This document shows, piece after piece, positions 6,077 to 64,000 of a DNA stretch of 64,000 bases. Source of the stretch: Cephalotus follicularis (lineage: Eukaryota; Streptophyta; Magnoliopsida; Oxalidales; Cephalotaceae); assembly GCA_001972305.1 (NCBI GenBank), contig BDDD01001639.1, forward strand, positions 1-64,000. Direction: 5' to 3'. Under the pieces are notes generated by a model. That model had not been told where the DNA came from, did not search any database, and was given only the letters and a program-made list of their open reading frames with translations. A program made the position numbers and the translations under genes. How positions within the stretch are numbered: the first letter of the stretch is position 1; each line of letters starts with the position of its first letter.

Positions 6077-8795
6077 CTAACGTGTGTAGCGACGGTTGGT
6101 GGTAGGATTGTTAGCATGGAAAGGCATCCAGGCAGAAGCAGTGAGCAAGCAAAGGTCTTTCCAACCAAGCTTTAGGGTGCCGTTATCCTCTACCAAGGTG
6201 TAACCATCAGAAGGGAACATGCCCAAGAGCAGCGTGGCCTGGGTGGCAGCGTTTCCAGCCAGAGAGATTCCCTTGAACCCAGACTGCTGCAGCTTGTCCC
6301 GCCAGTTGTGGAACTTCACCTCCCCACTCCTGGACGGCCCATTTACTGCAAGCACATTACGTATCTCTCTGGACAGCAACTGCTGCTCCACAACATGCCT
6401 CTCCTCGCTCTCCTCTCCGTACCCTGCCCCCAGCGAATCAAATAGAGCAGAGTAGTAGTGTATGGCTTCCACAAACCGTCCCAAGAATGATCCTGCATGG
6501 CTCAGATCCTGCTCAACTACCGTCACGACTTTTGGTGCCAATCTGAATATCATACATTTGGAAATGATTCACACATAAGTCAGTGCACATATATTGAAAT
6601 CCTTTATATAATATGCATCTACTGTGCTACACATGATCATCCAAATGAAACTTTCCCACAATTTAAAATGATGGAAACTGTAAAGTCATGATCGCATTTG
6701 TTACTGTGAAGATGCTAAACAACAGTAAGCACTATATTATATTAATCAAGCAGTGAGGCTTCGGGACATATTGAAAATTAAATAATAGTTTGTTGCAGTT
6801 ATAGAGTTGTGGTTTACATGGTATGGTAGAAGTATATATACTTTAATTAGATTATAGCTCCTGCATTACAACTTTAAAAACCAAGAAATATAGAGGTCAG
6901 ATGTCAATTATGTTTTATTACCTTTGCAAAAGCCATAGCGTATTGTTATCGGAACCGGTGACATCATATAGTGAATGTTGCAACCAGTGGACGGCGACGG
7001 CCTCCTTCTTGCTGACGTTGAGCCTCTCCGGATCCAAATTGCCAACTTTTTCAGCAACCGGATTGAACTCGAACGGTAGTCCAAGCTTATCGGCGAAATC
7101 AGAGAGGCGCTTGCCGGTAGCCTCCAGAGACTCGATGGAGGTTCCTAGCCCAGTGAGGCGCACGTAGGGTGGTCCCCCAGGTCTAGATGCCAGTATGTGG
7201 AAGAGGCCAGGCCACTGCAGCCCTTGCATGATGTCCAGATCTATGATGTGCACTCTCTCCTCCCTCTCGAATGCTTCCTGTATGGCCTGATTGGCGGTGA
7301 AATGTGAGAACTTGACAAAAGGGCTGATTCCGTTGAATACTTGGAAGGCAGACACCATCTTTTGGGTATGGGTATGTGGCAGCGCCGCGTATATTCCCAG
7401 GCAAGAACTCACCAGCCTCGCAGACATTGCCTCCGAGAAGTATGCCGCCACCCTTTGCGCAGACGTCCCGAACGGAGTGGAGAGTTGAGAGATTTCAAGC
7501 AGCATCTTGTTGGCTTCCTCAAAGTTGTCGGCTGAGACAGCCTCGGCGCATTGAAGGAGCAAGGTTAGGAGGTGCAAACCTTCTTCGTCTCTCTTCTGCT
7601 GCCTAATCTCTTCTTTCTTATCTCTAGTAGTGCTTGTACTTGTTGTGGTGGTGGTCGTTGCAGTCTCCGCAGTAGAGGAGTTTTCCTGCTCTTGTTGCTG
7701 ATCTTGCTGCTGAGGCAACTGCTGCCGTTGTGGAGGCGGCACCTGATTTAATGACAAAACTACTGGCGTACCAGAAGGAGCGCTACTAATCTGATGATGG
7801 GAATGAACTTGTTGGATGTTTTCTTGGCTGGCGGGGTTGGGCAGTGGAGTTAATCCCCAGTTGGAGTTCTGGGTCATCACATGGGAAGCCACAGTAGCAT
7901 CGTGTAGCGAGTAATTTGGAATGTTATCTATGCTGGACTCTAAATTGAGCGTGAGCCCAGAAGAGCCTTGATGTTGCAGTTGCTGCTGATGATTATAATG
8001 TCTATGCAGCAATCCCGCCGGCAGAGACAGAGGGTGCTGCTCTTTCCGTCGCCTCTCTAACGGATCCGTTAGTGAGCTGAGCCTGTGCTCCAAAAGAGCG
8101 GCAAGGTTGGGGTTGCAGGGTTGAATGATCTCTCTAACGTTGTGGATGAGGTGAGGGATGGAGACGTTGGTGGAGCTGTGGATGAGATCCTTTATGATGC
8201 CATCGATCCATGCCGTGGCCGAGGGGTCTTCCATGGGACAACCAAAAGCGCTGGTACTCGTATTGACAACGGCTGTGGTGTTTCGACTTCTTTCCGGTGG
8301 GAACAAGGGCAGACCTGAGAAGCCACAGACGGCAGGGGGGATGGGCTGGGGATTAGGAGAGATCGTATCGGGAGGGGTAAAGTTTGGGGTACTAGGAGTT
8401 GTAGATAAAAACACAGACCCGCCTGACGTCACCGTGGTCAAGTTGGTGGAAGAAGGTTTCAAAGTAGTCATATTGTTGATATTGATAGTGGAGTAGTTGA
8501 GGAGTGGGAGTGGAATGGGGTTATTGTTAGTTGGTGCTGGCAAGAAGGTAGAGCAGCCAATAATATTGTCGGAGGAGGGAACGCTAGTAGTACGTCGGGA
8601 AAACCTTTGGTAATCAGCTGCAAACTGCACTTCCATCTCCGAAGCCATCCTCTTTCTCACCATCTTTCCTCGCTCTTCTTGCTCTTCGTTGCTGTTTCCT
8701 GTTCTATTGCTAGTAGAGGCACTTGTCAGTGGACTTTCTCTCACATGTGCGTCAACCCCATTGTCACCTTCACCCTGCAAACTAGAAGCGGCCAT
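6077..8795 (-). CDS. SCR: SCARECROW GRAS-family transcription regulator (2 exons)
   Basis: This nuclear GRAS protein is known to work with SHORT-ROOT in ground-tissue radial patterning, endodermis fate and stem-cell upkeep. Exon 1 is 8795-6922 and exon 2 is 6542-6077, with a GT-AG intron at 6921-6543 that splits an Arg codon, giving 779 aa. The protein begins MAASS. It has the SCR-type [11 protein letters not shown] box (residues 45-55), a conserved [12 protein letters not shown] region (195-206), and Gln- and Thr-rich low-complexity linkers (about 355-395). The GRAS domain runs from about 404 to the end: leucine repeat [21 protein letters not shown] at 515-519, the PFYRE-like [44 protein letters not shown], and the terminal SAW motif [11 protein letters not shown]. 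Arabidopsis SCR is 653 aa; the extra length here lies in the linkers. The intron position within the GRAS domain is typical of SCR genes. The gene appears intact. Confidence 0.96.
6543..6921 (-). other. SCR: Intron of the SCARECROW gene (379 bp)
   Basis: The donor reads CAAAG|GTAATAAAAC and the acceptor GATATTCAG|ATTGGC on the minus strand. The join restores [17 protein letters not shown], which is invariant in SCR proteins. This sequence is AT-rich and holds no other gene. Confidence 0.93.
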
Positions 8796-10125: not shown

Positions 10126-11515
10126 TGTTGATACAGAAATCATTCTCTCAGCAGTATCCTACGTGGATGACTTTGATTTGTTAAGAGAAACGTTTGTCAC
10201 TGAATGCCTTGAGGAAGAATGTGATCTCGGACACCTGCACGAGGTAACAAAAATGGTGGAAATCCAGGAGGTTGTTCTCCCGGGGACACTCCGACGCTCA
10301 AGTTAGTCAAGTGCAGATGAAATATTATACTCTCTTGAATGTAAAAATTGCTGACCTTTGTTCAGTGTGTTGAACTTGTATTTATAGTGGATTTCTGTAA
10401 CTGAATGAGCGTGTGAATCGGATGTGATTGTTATCCCCTAGGAAATGCCGAGGATCTCGGACATTCCCTTATCTCCGCTCCGCCTATAATGTCGCTACTT
10501 TCCTTTGGTAGTAGTTGACTTGAACTCTATATCTTTGTTTGGATAGGTATGGATCCCATGGAATCTGGTAAAGATAATCTCCTTATCCTGTAGATAAGGT
10601 TGAGGTCCTCCGTGGTAGGATTGTAGAAGAGATCAACTATGATACTGCTGCCGAGGTCATGGTCCTCTTTAGTCCGAGGACAAAAATATATCAGAGGAGG
10701 AGCTTGATAGTTTCTGTGTAGAGAAGGGAATGTCTCATGTCTTATGTCTGGTAGGTACAGTGGGCAGTGGAAGTCCTCGGCCCCGACACCCTGAATGAGG
10801 TCTTCTGACCCGAAGTCCGAGGAGGGTCCTCGGCCTTGATGTTTCAGTATGTGCTCTTCATAAAATAGTGGTCCTCAGCTCTGGGTCCAAGGAGGAGGTC
10901 TTCCGCTATGTTAGCGTTCCTCAGCACGACCTCCTGTCAAGCTCCTAATCCCCTCTGGACAACTGGTCATGTCTGCAGTGGACACGTGGAGGAAGTCCTC
11001 TGCCATGCTGTAGAGGAGGAGGTCCTCCGCCATGCTGTAGAGGAGGAGGTCCTCTGCCTTGCTGCCGAGGAGGAGGTCCTCCGCCATGCTGTAGAGGAGG
11101 AGGTCCTCCGCCATGCTGTAGAGGAGGAGGTCCTCCGCCATACTGCCGAGGAGGAGGTCCTCCGCCATGCTGTAGAGGAGGAGGTCCTCCGCCATGCTGT
11201 AGAGGAGGAGGTCCTCCGCCATGTTGTAGAGGAGGAGGTCCTCTGCCTTGCTGCCGAGGAGGAGGTCCTCCGCCTTTGAGTCCGAGGAGGAGGTCCTCCG
11301 CCTTTGAGTCCGAGGAGTGTCCTCGGACTTGTGGTCTCAGTGTGTTGTCTTTGAAAAATAACAGTCCTCGGCTCCTGGTCCGAGATGGACATTCTTCGCT
11401 ATGTGTGTGCTCCTCGGCACGGCTTGCTAATAAGCTTCTAATCTTCCCTGGACAACTGGTCATGTCTGCTGTGGACACGTGTTCTTTAAAATATGAACAA
11501 ATTTTTCCTCCATCA
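10126..11515 (-). repeat. Solo LTR of the Tat-like family, with target duplication
   Basis: The repeat runs from TGTTGATACAG to TCCATCA and is flanked on both sides by the perfect 5-bp duplication CTTTG (10121-10125 and 11516-11520). No internal sequence is present, so this is a solo LTR, the usual product of recombination between the two LTRs of one element. It is 1390 bp against 909 bp for the copy at 1925-2833. Much of the extra length is the minisatellite at 10988-11313. Orientation matches the minus-strand copy at 1925. Confidence 0.92.
10988..11313. repeat. 27-bp minisatellite inside the solo LTR, about 12 units
   Basis: Units of the form GGAGGAGGTCCTCCGCCATG plus CTGTAGA (variants CTGCCGA) run head to tail. 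The last two units are 28 bp and end TTTGAGTCCGA. The related LTR at 1925-2833 carries the ancestral single copy (CCTTTGAGTCCGAGGAGTGT near 2618). Because 27 is a multiple of three, the array opens long but meaningless reading frames on both strands. Each unit contains an AGGAGGTCCTCC palindrome. Confidence 0.95.
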
Positions 11516-57023: not shown

Positions 57024-57290
57024 CCGTCGACGCTTTATGCTTTCAAAACTAAACCTGTCGACGCTTTTATGTGTTAAACTTACAGTCGACGCTTTTATGT
57101 GTTAAACTTACAGTCGACACTTTTATGTGTTAAACTTATAGTCGGCGCTTTTATGTGTTAAACTTACAGTCGACGCTTTTATGAATTAAACTAAACAGTC
57201 GACGCCTTATGTTTAAAACAAATCGTTGACACTTTATACTTGTGCTTTTTAAAACTGTTGACGCCCGCGGCTAAGCATCGACGCTTAGTG
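57024..57290. repeat. About 28-bp tandem repeat with GTCGACGC core
   Basis: About eight units of the form GTCGACGCTTTTATGTGTTA plus AACTTACA, degenerating at both ends. It lies inside the Tekay/Del LTR. The GTCGAC core is self-complementary. Confidence 0.88.
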
Positions 57291-57984
57291 CCCTAGTCAG
57301 CCCAAACACCCTGTTTTACATGGTTTTCCATCCAAAATGGTTTTATGTTCAACCGGATTTCATAGAAAGCCTCCCTAAGGCTTTGTAACCTATGGAAATC
57401 CTTATGTATTACTTTTGATTTCTAAATCGATGTTCAAGTGAAGTTTTAAGGAAAGTACTCAATAAAAGAGTTTTACGTAAATGGTTTCTAAATGGTTTTC
57501 AAAATGGTCAGGATAGTTCCATTAGGATATCGAGACGCGGATATCTTATTTGGACTTCATCTCCATTGTTTTATGGATTTCAAAATGGTCAGGTACTTCC
57601 ATTGGGACATCTAGGCACGGATACTCCTATTTGGACTCCCTTTCCATTCATTATAACTTCGATAGGGACCAACCAAATGATATATGAAAAATTGATTACA
57701 AAATGGATTATGGACACAAAAATGGCCATTGGACATGAAAAATGACTTATGATTAAGAAATGATCTTTATATGATTTGACGGATGTGGATCATATGAGAT
57801 CCTTTATGAAATGGTCCCTATCCTTTAAACAAATATATGTTCAGGGTTACGAGTATTGCAAGGTACAACTATGATACATATTATTGTTTGAGACCTATGA
57901 GATAACCACCCATAACCTACGTTTCCGTCATGAGGATTATGGGTGTTCGATCACATCATCATTGGAGGTTCTTGGCGCCTATGG

Positions 57985-58125
57985 GTTCTCACCGTTTTTA
58001 CGGCTTTACCACCATACTACGGATTCTGACCGTTTTTACGGCTTTACCACATACTACGGGTTCTGACCGTTTTTACGGCTTTACCACTATATTTACGAGC
58101 TCTGACCATTTTTACGGCTTAGCCA
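57985..58125. repeat. About 42-bp tandem repeat
   Basis: Four imperfect units containing TGACCGTTTTTACGGCTTTA then CCAC. They carry the inverted words CCGT/ACGG and lie within the Tekay/Del LTR. Confidence 0.85.
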
Positions 58126-59345: not shown

Positions 59346-59359
59346 TTGGTATCAGAGCC
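59346..59359 (+). promoter_or_regulatory. Primer-binding site of the Tekay/Del element
   Basis: TTGGTATCAGAGCC (Met-tRNA type) lies immediately inside the LTR end GCGACA. Confidence 0.88.
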
Positions 59360-59858
59360 GGTCCTATGCTGGATACGCCAGGATAGGGTCCTTGGCTATG
59401 GGAATTGAGAATGATTGATGGCAATAAAGTGCTAATTGGAGTTACTTGGAATAGTGGAATGATAAGTGTTACATGGAGTTTCATGGAAGTATGAGTATAA
59501 GAAGTCGATAGCTGAATCTTTGTCTCTCAAACAAGTAGATATGGAACAGAAAAGGAAAGGAACTACCATACCACATTTAGACTAGTCCCACGGTCAGGAA
59601 TTATCGAGGACATACAGTTTGACCTAGTCTCACAGTTTTATGGTATGGGTTGGTTATACAGTTATGGATTGTACGGTTGCGGACCGTACAACCATGAATC
59701 GTACGGCTAGGGATCGTGCAGTTATGGTTAAGGGATAAGGTATGAATACGGATTTGATATGTTTGCGGATCGCATAGTTACGGATAGTAATGATCCGGAT
59801 TGTGATGGTATAGTCGGAGGACAGTCCATGTGTTTAGTTAACCCTCCTATGGATATAT

Positions 59859-60055
59859 CATTACAAGAAAATGGGGCATTTGAAACGCACCCTTTTGAAA
59901 CGGACCAGGCGGCCGTTTCAAAAGGCCCACCCTTTTGAAACGGTAGCTATCTTCCGTTTCAAAAGGGTGGGCCTTTTGAAACGGTAACTATCTTCCGTTT
60001 CAAAAGGGTGGTCCTTTTGAAACGGAAGATAGTTACCGTTTCAAATAGGTGTGTT
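59859..60055. repeat. Left terminal and subterminal repeats of the CACTA-like element
   Basis: There are eight copies of CCCTTTTGAAACGG or its reverse complement, some with minor changes. Several form hairpins such as CCCTTTTGAAACGG, a 10-base loop, then CCGTTTCAAAAGGG (about 59930-59967). In CACTA elements such subterminal repeats bind the transposase. Confidence 0.85.
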
Positions 60056-60726
60056 TTATTCCCAAATGTTAAAACAATGTTGTCTCCGAACTGAACTTCC
60101 TCTCTACCCTCATTCTCTGGTCACCATCTCTGTCTCTCGCCTTCAACACTAACCTAGTACGGCAACGAGCTCTCCTCCTCCTCTCCTCTCACTTTCAACG
60201 GCTCCACTTCTCCTCTCCTCAGTCCTCTCACTCTCGACTCAATATCGCCAGTCTCCAATCACTTTGAAAGGCTCCTCTCCTCCCACTTTGATCGGTACCA
60301 GCGGACAGTCGACAGAGTAATACAGGTTTCTATCGTTTCTTTCTCTTTCCTGTTTTTCTGTTTTTACTCGACATTGAAAGTCTTTTACCAGATGTGGGTC
60401 TGTTTTTAGTCGCCATCCATTGTTTTTTTGAACGACTCAAGCATTATGAGCCGGGTTGAGGGGGATAAACCATGATCCGGAGGTGGGTCTGCAACAGTGG
60501 ATGGTGGCTGGGTGGCATGTCATGTTGGTGGATTTATTTCTGCTGAACTTTGGGATATGGTTCGTGGAGAGGAATGAAGCCTTCGATTTCAATGTGGAGA
60601 AGCACGTTTGGAGAGAGAACGAGGAGGTCGGTGGATCTCGAGTTCTTATTATGAAGTAAGAGAAAGCATCTTTTACTCATTTATTATCATATAGGTTGAC
60701 ATTCATTCTTATAATTTGGTTCATAG
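60056..60726 (+). other. Leader-like region with an unidentified reading frame
   Basis: CT-rich sequence at 60090-60300 looks like a plant 5' UTR. A frame at 60456-60659 encodes 67 aa (MRGINHDPEVGLQQWMVAGW..., then FDFNVEKHVWRENEEV) and overlaps a good donor (GTAAGAG at 60656). The protein was not recognised. It does not match the part of DHFR-TS expected before the next exon. Confidence 0.4.
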
Positions 60727-60792
60727 AAAGTGTTTTGGCGGGGTGTTGTTGAAGAACTTCTGTGGTTCATCAGTGGTTCTACAAGTGCCAAG
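60727..60792 (+). pseudogene. Captured thymidylate synthase exon (from DHFR-TS)
   Basis: This 66-bp exon encodes [16 protein letters not shown] then GSTSAK, a near-invariant part of the thymidylate synthase domain that in plants belongs to bifunctional dihydrofolate reductase-thymidylate synthase (dTMP synthesis). It is bounded by an acceptor (TTCATAG) and a donor (GTACGG) and is phase 0 on both sides. The preceding TS exons (ending FPLLTTK) and the following ones (HIWDGNASR and the catalytic Cys region) are absent, so no enzyme can be made. It lies in the CACTA-like element with a DDRGK fragment downstream in the same orientation. Confidence 0.85.
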
Positions 60793-61425
60793 GTACGGAA
60801 TTTATTGACAGTGTGGGCATGCTATCTTTTCCATTTGAAGTTTTTAATGTGGTGTTTGTAATTGGATTCGATTTGCTGGATTATTTTTGATTTCTTCAAT
60901 CCCAGTAATCATAAGACCAAGTTGCCCATTGCATGACTATTATGGGGGCAAGATATGTTTCACAAAAGTAACCCCTTTATTGTGCCATTGCCATTTTCAA
61001 GTGGTGTCACTGAAAATAAGTTAGATTTCCTTGTGTCATACCGAGTTTCTAGTGACTCCTAATTCATTTGTTGCAGTTTAGATGATTAAGTGTTTGTGTT
61101 CACCAATGAATCTCTATATACCAGCAGTAGATATTTGATTGAGAAACTATGTTCACGTAATAATTAAGTTCTCATGCAAATTTAAATGTACTCAGCTGTG
61201 GCATACTTTTTCACAATCAAATTTCTCAAAAAACCATTGACGATATACATGTTAGCTAACTTTCAAAAATTATGTTGTTTTCTTCATGTGATCCTGGGCT
61301 TTTTATCAAAACAAATTTACATCCTTTTTCCCTTTTATCTTCTTTTAAAGTTACACCAATTGTCCCTGTCTGCTGATCAGTTGACATTTATTGTAAATTC
61401 TGATTTCCATATGATCATTGTGAAG

Positions 61426-62842
61426 GCTGACGAAGCTGCACGTGAGTCGGGGCATACAAAAAAAGACCGCTATGCGGAAATGCGGAGGAAAAAAGAGGAG
61501 GAGCATGAGGCCCGAGAGCATATGCTGGTGGGTTGATAAGCTTTCTTTCTTGTGTTTTGTTATTACACATAGATGTAGTAGGGTGCACAAGGAGGCATGG
61601 TGTCATTTTGTATTTTCATCAAGATGGGTTGATAACCTTTCTTTTAGCATATACATGTTGCACACACATTGAGATGTGGTGGGGAGCACAAGGAGCCATG
61701 GTATTATTTTGTATTATCATCAAAATCCAAGTTTCTTACAAAATTCCAAGTTCGTTGAGAACTTGAAATACAAAGACTAATTTTATTGATTACCAGAATT
61801 AAGTGTCTATTTATTAAGCTTTCAAAACCAATTATTATAGGAAAGAAATTATAAAATGCTAGTAATAAATTTATCTTGATGGTTTAATAAACTCTAGTTC
61901 TACCCTTGCAGCTTTTGCATCACATACACAAACATTTATTGGATTTGCTGTTAATGTATTGGTCATGTTTTTTACAGGAAGAAGAAGCCAAGGCTCAGAA
62001 AGCAAGGGAGGAGGAAGCTGCCGCGTTAGAATTTGATAAATGGAGAGGTGAATTTTCAGTTGATGCTGAAGGCACTACAGAAGCCGAATTGCAGGATGGA
62101 AATCAGGACTTGCTTTATGATTTTGTGGAATATATTAAGGTATTTATCTGTATGGCTCTTGTTAGTTGCTCACGATAAGGATTTTATCATTTTCAATACG
62201 CTTTTAATTTGTTTAATTGGATGTGTGTTAGATGATCCATTATATGATGTTGTCTTCTTTTTCCAACTTGTGTTTAGTTAACAGTGGAATTGAATTTTTA
62301 GAAGAACAAATTCTATTTAGTATTGGAAATGTTATAAGAGTGCATATAGCTGTACACAATAATAGTATGGACCTTCAGTCAGACAGATATATCAATGGAT
62401 GATAATGAGGCTTCAAAGCCAATGTTGTTGTGCTGATTCGTTTTGTTCTATTTCTAAATTTGAACGAGCAGAAACAGAAATGTGTACCCTTAGAAGATAT
62501 TGCTGCAGAGTTTAAGTTAAGGACACAGGTGCTCTCTCTGACCTTTTTTTTAATTTAATTTTTTGAAAATCAATGTCCCATTCCGTGTTTCTTTTATTTC
62601 TGGACATTGTGCTAGAGTGGGTTAGCATTCTGATAGATACAAAGCATATGCTAACTCATCTGTCATGAAACATTTAATCACATAAGTTAAGTGTATTTGC
62701 ATTCGTATGTCTAAGTAACTACTTTTACACGATATGTTTGTATTCTCATATTCGTGTGACTTTATGCAAAGTATGGATTCTTATTTAAAATTTTGGTTGA
62801 TGCAGGAATGTATCAATCGGATCACCTCCCTTGAAAGTATGG
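61426..62842 (+). pseudogene. Captured DDRGK1/UFBP1 gene fragment (four exons)
   Basis: The exons are 61426-61527, 61978-62139, 62472-62528 and 62806-62842, all with AG/GT borders. They encode the middle of the DDRGK domain protein: ADEAARES, DRYAEMRRKKEEE, EEEAAALEFDKWRGEFS, DAEGTTEAELQDGNQDLL, KQKCVPLEDIAAEFKLRTQ and ECINRITSLESMG. DDRGK1 (UFBP1) is an ER-anchored partner of the UFM1 ligase UFL1. The amino-terminal membrane anchor and the carboxyl part with the MDDRGKYIYIS signature are missing, so this is a fragment. The first three exons are phase 0; the last ends in phase 1. Exons and introns were captured as genomic DNA, not as cDNA. Introns are AT-rich and hold nothing else recognised. 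Confidence 0.88.
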
Positions 62843-63121
62843 GTATGTTTCATTTCCATACCTGTAATTGTGCACTGCTTTCACATTCACTATCATTAGA
62901 ACTGTACAACTTGATCTTAGCGTCTTGAGGATGTCTTCTGTCATGCTTTAATATTCAAATAACACTTCAAAATATTTCCATGTCCCCTACAGCTCACCTC
63001 CCTTCTACTAACTCCCAATCTATGATTCAGATTTGGGTAACCTCCCATGTAATGACATCCTCTGTATGTGATTGAAAAACCGATCAATTTAGCAACATTC
63101 TTTTACTAATATCTGATGCAG

Positions 63122-63235
63122 ATCTTGGAGCTCAATCCAGAAAAGAAGAATATAGATTCTTTTGTGGCAGATGATTTTAAACTCATAGGTTATGATCCCC
63201 ACCAGAAGATAGAGATGAAAATGGCTCCTTGGCAA
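63122..63235 (+). pseudogene. Captured last exon of thymidylate synthase (DHFR-TS carboxyl end)
   Basis: After an acceptor (CTGATGCAG) the frame reads ILELNPEKKNIDSF, VADDFKL then IGYDPHQKIEMKMA, the carboxyl terminus of plant DHFR-TS, where the natural protein ends MKMAV. Here the sequence continues past that point into MAPWQYLLIFF, so the native stop is lost. The exon begins in phase 0, whereas the upstream DDRGK exon ends in phase 1, so a splice between them would shift frame. The exons that lie between this and the TS piece at 60727 in a real gene are not here. Confidence 0.88.
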
Positions 63236-63889
63236 TATTTGCTCATATTTTTTAGGCAAGTAATAAATTGTATACCGTTTTTAGCTGATGATTTCATTTA
63301 TTCATTAAACTTTTTAATGTTCAATCTATTTTGTATATTCATTAGTTAAGATATGTTAAACACAGCAAGTGCATAAGGGCTTCATGCCTGACGTTTTAAA
63401 TTCCAAGGCATCCATCACTGCCTTGCAAGTTTGCAATGAGGGTCCTCTCTGCTTGTTTGTAATGAGGGTCCTCTCAGTCAATGATGTTTGGTTTAAATAC
63501 TTATCACCTTAAAGCAGGTTGCATTTGAAGCTTTGTTTCTCTTTGATGTTTCAGGCACTGCCACGGGAGGCTTATGTTGAATACAGAGTTGTTACAAATG
63601 GTCAAATAACAGTTTAGTAGTTGGATACATTTTAAGGACTTTGCATATGTATCAAGCCAGAATCCTTTAGTTCCACATTGGGTTGGTTGGTTCTAAGGTG
63701 ATTTAGGATACTTGTTTTTTTCTTGCTTTTCATATTAACTTTTTGCTTTTACGTTGGATTCATTTTCTGAATTATTGCAAATGTTCTGTTGTACTGTTCT
63801 TAAATGTTGTGTTCTTAAAAGATTTAAATGAATTATATTTTTTTATTTTTTAAAACCCTTTTGAGGGTTTTTTTTAAAATTTTTTTTAG
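63236..63889 (+). other. 3' part of the captured region, with one unidentified exon-like piece
   Basis: Near 63555-63616, after a TTTCAG acceptor, a short frame reads ALPREAYVEYRVVTNGQITV and stops. It looks like the end of a real protein but was not recognised. A repeated phrase AATGAGGGTCCTCTC occurs twice at about 63437-63475. T-rich sequence follows, up to the right subterminal repeats. Confidence 0.4.
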
Positions 63890-64000
63890 AACCTTTTGAA
63901 ACGGTTAAAACCGTTTCAAAAGGGTATTTTTTTTATTTTTTTTAGAACCAAACCGTTTCAAAAGGGTACCCTTTTGAAACGGTTGGTGTTAACCATTTCA
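63890..64000. repeat. Right subterminal repeats of the CACTA-like element
   Basis: Copies of CCTTTTGAAACGG and CCGTTTCAAAAGGG are paired head to head, matching 59889-60050. The window ends inside this block. Confidence 0.85.

Follow-up and report, generated by a model that had tools for sequence, protein, structure and literature searches.

At its right-hand end, the window, a 64-kb stretch of Cephalotus follicularis DNA (positions 1 to 64,000 of contig BDDD01001639.1), carries pieces of host genes between two clusters of one short repeat unit (Table 1). In order, these are a probable exon fragment of a NECAP gene, an exon of thymidylate synthase (TS), four exons or exon fragments of DDRGK1/UFBP1 (D1–D4), and the last exon of TS, followed by an exon-like stretch. 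TS is an enzyme of DNA building, through dTMP synthesis, and DDRGK1 belongs to the UFM1 pathway. The first-pass annotation had described the TS exon, the four DDRGK1 exons, and the terminal TS exon as lying in one orientation with their introns kept, and the homology and the AG/GT exon edges presented below agree with that description. The window also carries a GRAS gene and LTR retrotransposon domains. A 625-aa open frame on the − strand (6918-8795) contains part of a GRAS domain (positions 2-231 of the 374-position profile, E 1.7e-76) and is a transcription factor gene that is either cut short or interrupted by an intron. A 27-bp tandem repeat array (D1 in the repeat listing) at 10934-11338 overlaps a 195-aa open frame on the − strand.

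Table 1 Features of the putative CACTA-like element and its gene fragments (positions in the 64-kb window).
Feature	Position	Strand	Basis and remarks
Putative left terminus, CATTACAAGAAAA	59859-59871	+	Sole match in the window, on either strand, with at most 1 mismatch to CACTACAAGAAAA
Left subterminal array	59888-60051		TTTTGAAACGG units every 20-21 bp, direct and inverted in strict alternation; repeat families D3, D5, D7, and I1-I4
Probable NECAP (PF07933) exon fragment, GIWFVERNEAFDFNVEKHVWRENEEVGG	60552-60635	+	Weak Pfam and PDB matches, and tblastn
TS exon (TSa)	60727-60792	+	22 residues, corresponding to 301-322 of 8dae; PDB and Pfam homology, splice borders
DDRGK1 exon or exon fragment D1	61426-61527	+	Homology; acceptor GTGAAG is weak
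DDRGK1 exon D2	61978-62139	+	Homology, splice borders; also seen in the six-frame Pfam scan
DDRGK1 exon D3	62472-62528	+	Homology, splice borders
DDRGK1 exon D4	62806-62842	+	37 nt, ends in phase 1; homology, splice borders
Last TS exon (TSz)	63122-63226	+	Lacks the final residue and stop; homology reaches residue 535/536 of 8dae
Exon-like stretch, ALPREAYVEYRVVTNGQITV	63555-63617	+	Good acceptor TTTCAG, 20 codons, stop
Right subterminal repeats	63889-64000		4 of the 11 TTTTGAAACGG copies, orientations + − − +; families D5, D7, D8, I5, I16, and I17; cut by the window end

The peptide of the first TS exon gave the TS entry 5by6 as its top PDB match (E 1.5e-8, 20 of 22 residues identical; among the best 60 of 89 sequences up to E 1). 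In Pfam, this very short piece matched positions 49-69 of PF00303 at E 0.00017 and 21.3 bits, which is under the curated cut-off of 24.3. The last TS exon matched positions 232-265 of the 266 positions of the same family at E 9.5e-6, over the cut-off, and the best of 44 PDB sequences was a DHFR-TS chain, 8dae, the enzyme from Arabidopsis (residues 501-535 of 536, E 4.4e-12, 26/35 identical). Past 63226, the frame of this exon continues into other sequence. The end of the feature had been set at 63235; TS homology stops at 63226, short of the natural final residue and stop, both of which are absent. The middle of TS, residues 323-500 of the 536-aa 8dae (178 residues), was not found between the two exons. 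A six-frame Pfam scan of 59851-64000, which showed only one of the four DDRGK1 exons, detected no PF00303 besides the two TS exons. When a TS probe was used in tblastn, 9 hits were obtained; the two TS exons had E values of at most 1.6e-10, and the other seven had E values of at least 0.046.

With D1–D4 joined, Pfam assigned the peptide to PF09756 at E 1.1e-22, over the cut-off. All five PDB matches were DDRGK1 entries (best E 1.6e-10), one of them a DDRGK1 fusion and another named 'C20orf116 homolog', C20orf116 being an older name of DDRGK1. A tblastn search with a DDRGK1 probe recovered the four exons (E 3.0e-25 to 3.8e-4) along with 10 further hits, none better than E 0.82. The weak acceptor of D1 may represent a capture breakpoint within an exon instead of a splice site. 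The C-terminal part of DDRGK1 was not found by tblastn with this probe, which was without the N-terminal part of the protein. Because the middle of TS and the C-terminal part of DDRGK1 are missing, the region is not a normal TS or DDRGK1 gene, and the possibility of such a normal gene, named in the first-pass annotation as a ground for rejecting the mosaic, is contradicted. A search for DDRGK1 in viral contigs gave 5 pattern matches, 0 of which were confirmed relatives.

The stretch GIWFVERNEAFDFNVEKHVWRENEEVGG, upstream of the first TS exon, was not listed in the earlier annotation. In Pfam, its peptide matched PF07933 at E 0.012 and 15.7 bits, well under the curated cut-off of 29.2, and the PDB search up to E 10 returned two matches only, both NECAP1 (E 0.96 and 1). 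The tblastn search with a plant NECAP probe matched 60552-60635 at E 3.7e-6 with 19/33 identical residues and a five-residue gap, and the next hit was at E 2.0; this probe was drawn up after GIWFVERNEAFDFNVEKHVWRENEEVGG had been seen. NECAP was not shown at E 1 by the six-frame Pfam scan of 59851-64000. Judged from its sequence, GIWFVERNEAFDFNVEKHVWRENEEVGG is probably a piece of a third source gene, NECAP. The peptide of ALPREAYVEYRVVTNGQITV had no Pfam family up to E 1 and no PDB match up to E 10; this stretch may represent the terminal exon of another captured gene, or it may be no exon at all. The Pfam scan also gave weak minus-strand matches to PF24244 (E 0.033) and PF16974 (E 0.099), which were taken as chance.

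All six TS and DDRGK1 exons lie on the + strand and contain no internal stop or frameshift. At their edges, AG acceptors were found in 6/6 cases and GT donors in 5/5 cases; the edges were set at the AG or GT nearest to the ends of homology, hence this agreement is partly by choice. Plant introns are expected to be T-rich on the sense strand. The five gaps between the six exons were T-rich on the + strand, with T fractions of 0.36-0.42; the fraction was 0.29 in the 499 bases to the left of the element and 0.24 in exon D2. The gap between D4 and the last TS exon (62843-63121) differs from the other four in being richer in C and poorer in G. The retention of intron-like gaps with splice borders shows that the gene pieces were captured from DNA and not from mRNA. 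TSa, D1, D2, and D3 are each divisible by three in length and join in frame. Inclusion of D4 puts the last TS exon out of frame, with a stop after 17 codons. With D4 skipped, the last TS exon reads open, and so does the exon-like tail if a splice between the two is assumed. No in-frame ATG was seen by eye before the TS exon for one assumed upstream donor. A scan for sigma-70-type promoters, which is unsuited to a plant locus, gave 1 match versus 0.8 expected, showing no excess.

The mosaic is bracketed by two clusters of the subterminal unit TTTTGAAACGG, as the first-pass annotation had proposed from matching subterminal repeats. This unit occurs in 11 exact copies in the 64-kb window, against 0.07 expected; seven are at 59893-60025, four are at 63894-63982, and none is found elsewhere in the window. 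Both orientations occur in each cluster. In one study, CACTA elements are recognized by such subterminal units of 10 to 20 bp, direct and inverted, and an intact CACTA motif is required at both ends (PMC8978399); at this locus, direct and inverted units lie near both ends of the element in the manner of CACTA (En/Spm) elements. A 16-bp subterminal sequence gave one match at each of 8 loci in viral contigs, which were taken as chance. The left array (59888-60051) consists of near-perfect inverted repeats, the predicted transcript of which folds very stably and is a possible source of small RNA against the element. The RNA fold predicted for 59880-60060 comprises an outer stem and three hairpins (−123.3 kcal/mol, z −18).

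The putative left terminus, CATTACAAGAAAA, is separated by 16 bases from the first repeat copy (59888). It agrees at 12/13 bases with CACTACAAGAAAA, the 13-mer of the plant CACTA end; the CACTA motif itself is not intact (CATTA) and is one transition off. From a rough simulation (6 hits in 8 million positions), matches to CACTACAAGAAAA with at most 1 mismatch are expected ca. 0.096 times per 64 kb and 3e-5 times per 40 bases. With at most 2 mismatches, 5 matches were found versus 3.0 expected in the window, which is no excess. The argument for the left terminus is thus the one-mismatch match together with its position, the motif CACTACAAGAAAA having been picked after the sequence was read. Among published sequences, CACTACAA is printed as the Arabidopsis CACTA end in one report (PMC8903248), and the 12-nt query CACTACTNGAAA was used for lettuce (PMC8195511). 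The right terminus lies beyond the window end at 64000, as do the right flank and the 3-bp target site duplication, and the element is at least 4.1 kb long. We call it CACTA-like because the left end is one transition off CACTA and the right end is outside the window. The CACTA-like assignment made in the first-pass annotation accordingly gained a left terminus and shared subterminal units but was not proven. In view of the left terminus and the subterminal units, neither Helitron nor Mutator was considered further as the origin.

No match to 59859-64000 was found in the rest of the window by blastn at E 1e-3. About 500 bases left of the element, at 59347-59358, there is an exact copy of TGGTATCAGAGC, a primer-site motif of LTR retrotransposons. 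Judging from this motif to its left, the element probably sits inside a retrotransposon leader. Upstream of the primer site, short tandem arrays with units of 28 bp and about 38 bp occur at 57029-57224 and 57975-58125 (D1 and D4 in the repeat listing).

Host gene fragments, those of TS and DDRGK1 and probably NECAP, thus lie inside the element in the manner of Pack-CACTA elements, and we consider it likely that the locus is a gene-bearing, non-autonomous CACTA-like transposon of the Pack-CACTA sort. The order of its source pieces is probably NECAP-TS-DDRGK1-TS, drawn from two and probably three host genes, and genomic copies of these pieces would make up most of the interior. No transposase domain was found up to E 1 by the six-frame Pfam scan of 59851-64000, a scan that missed known short exons; with no such domain seen, the element would need a related autonomous one. 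It would move when a transposase provided in trans binds its ends and subterminal units. The host DNA would have been taken up at the DNA level, in several steps or through template switches, and the gap before the last TS exon may hold a capture junction. A TS block extending up to the last TS exon would have been captured early, and a break inside the element could later have been repaired by copying an unrelated template, by which a DDRGK1 block replaced the middle of TS. Early capture of TS followed by replacement through break repair is the simplest reading of the A-B-A order, that is, of a DDRGK1 block between two TS pieces, and we put it forward tentatively; we infer the order of capture purely from parsimony. 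The cargo is most likely passive. It cannot make intact TS or DDRGK1; if it is transcribed, splicing could yield chimeric RNAs, by analogy with Tgm-Express1.

The same kind of element might also have acquired the whole mosaic in one repair or replication event, in which several template switches led from NECAP through TS and DDRGK1 to TS again. The collinear TS pieces on both sides and the single orientation fit a return to the first template, and microhomology-guided template switching has been inferred for animal Pack-TIRs (PMC8277862); we regard a single event as possible, if on the unlikely side. The earlier statement that the interleaving reflects at least two captures, or one capture inside another, therefore stands as one reading only, since template switches during one repair event would produce an identical arrangement. 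It appears improbable that the A-B-A order is a relic of the copying by which CACTA elements gain genes, one captured gene having been left as template and then resumed, and that, in addition, in-frame TS-DDRGK1 chimeric splice forms are produced. An element of this kind could instead have formed by fusion of two neighbouring elements of the same family, which enclosed the DNA between them, later trimmed. This corresponds to the acquisition model presented for Pack-CACTA in two reports (PMC8903248; PMC13317346), but no relic of internal ends was found, none of the 11 exact TTTTGAAACGG units lying in 60026-63893. As the model permits deletion of the internal ends, we judge such a fusion unlikely and no worse than that.

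Another reading assigns the two repeat clusters to separate elements and takes the mosaic as a patch of chromosomal pseudogenes between them; it is suggested by the position of the right terminus outside the window and by the dependence of the element's identity on one shared 11-bp unit. However, TTTTGAAACGG has no exact copy elsewhere in the 64 kb, and the left terminus is at the expected place. Moreover, the TS, DDRGK1, and NECAP peptides had no match left of the terminus, bar one hit of the NECAP peptide at 41734-41666 (E 0.071), which was taken as chance. We consider two separate elements decidedly unlikely. The first-pass annotation had itself named a different origin of the repeats at 63890-64000 as a ground for rejecting its proposal, and the shared unit makes such an origin unlikely without settling the matter. 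A functioning chimeric gene for a TS-DDRGK1-TS fusion protein would fit the six open exons, the in-frame junctions from TSa to D3, and the in-frame position of TSz when D4 is skipped; the frame shift and early stop with D4, the lack of a visible start codon before the TS exon for the one assumed donor, and the mostly missing TS domain make it very unlikely. An assembly artefact joining unrelated reads is very unlikely; the pieces adjoin one another in intron-like DNA, and clusters of a single shared repeat unit flank them on both sides.

Elements of this kind are already known from Tgm-Express1, Tpn1, and Pack-CACTA, and the A-B-A interleaving is the unusual point of the present one. Tgm-Express1, from the wp allele of soybean, belongs to the CACTA superfamily, as we propose here, and carries pieces of five source genes, whereas two and probably three are found here; the available text on it mentions no gene fragment flanked on both sides by fragments of a second gene, in contrast to the A-B-A order (PMC1947982). 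In the same text, the captured exons of Tgm-Express1 are spliced into chimeric RNAs, as shown in soybean (PMC1947982). The Tpn1 family of Ipomoea nil is similar in having conserved ends and subterminal repeats with an interior replaced by captured host sequence, and a chimeric transcript has been reported for it; 339 non-autonomous copies with target duplications are known, whereas here there is one partial copy with other cargo (PMC5105172). Pack-CACTA elements were annotated by both ends, target duplications, and copy clusters, and include elements with several source loci (PMC8903248). In the openly licensed literature, no earlier report of a CACTA element with TS or DDRGK cargo was found, and none of the papers that combine two of these terms pairs CACTA with DDRGK or has a title on a transposon; among the matches listed for NECAP, none contained CACTA and NECAP together.

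For animal Pack-TIR elements, gap filling and fork stalling with template switching have been proposed (PMC8277862). The models published for the acquisition of DNA by transposons include neighbour fusion, gap filling, and template switching. Once aligned with the source genes, the junctions of an element like this one, in which DDRGK1 sequence interrupts two collinear TS pieces, could separate these acquisition models.
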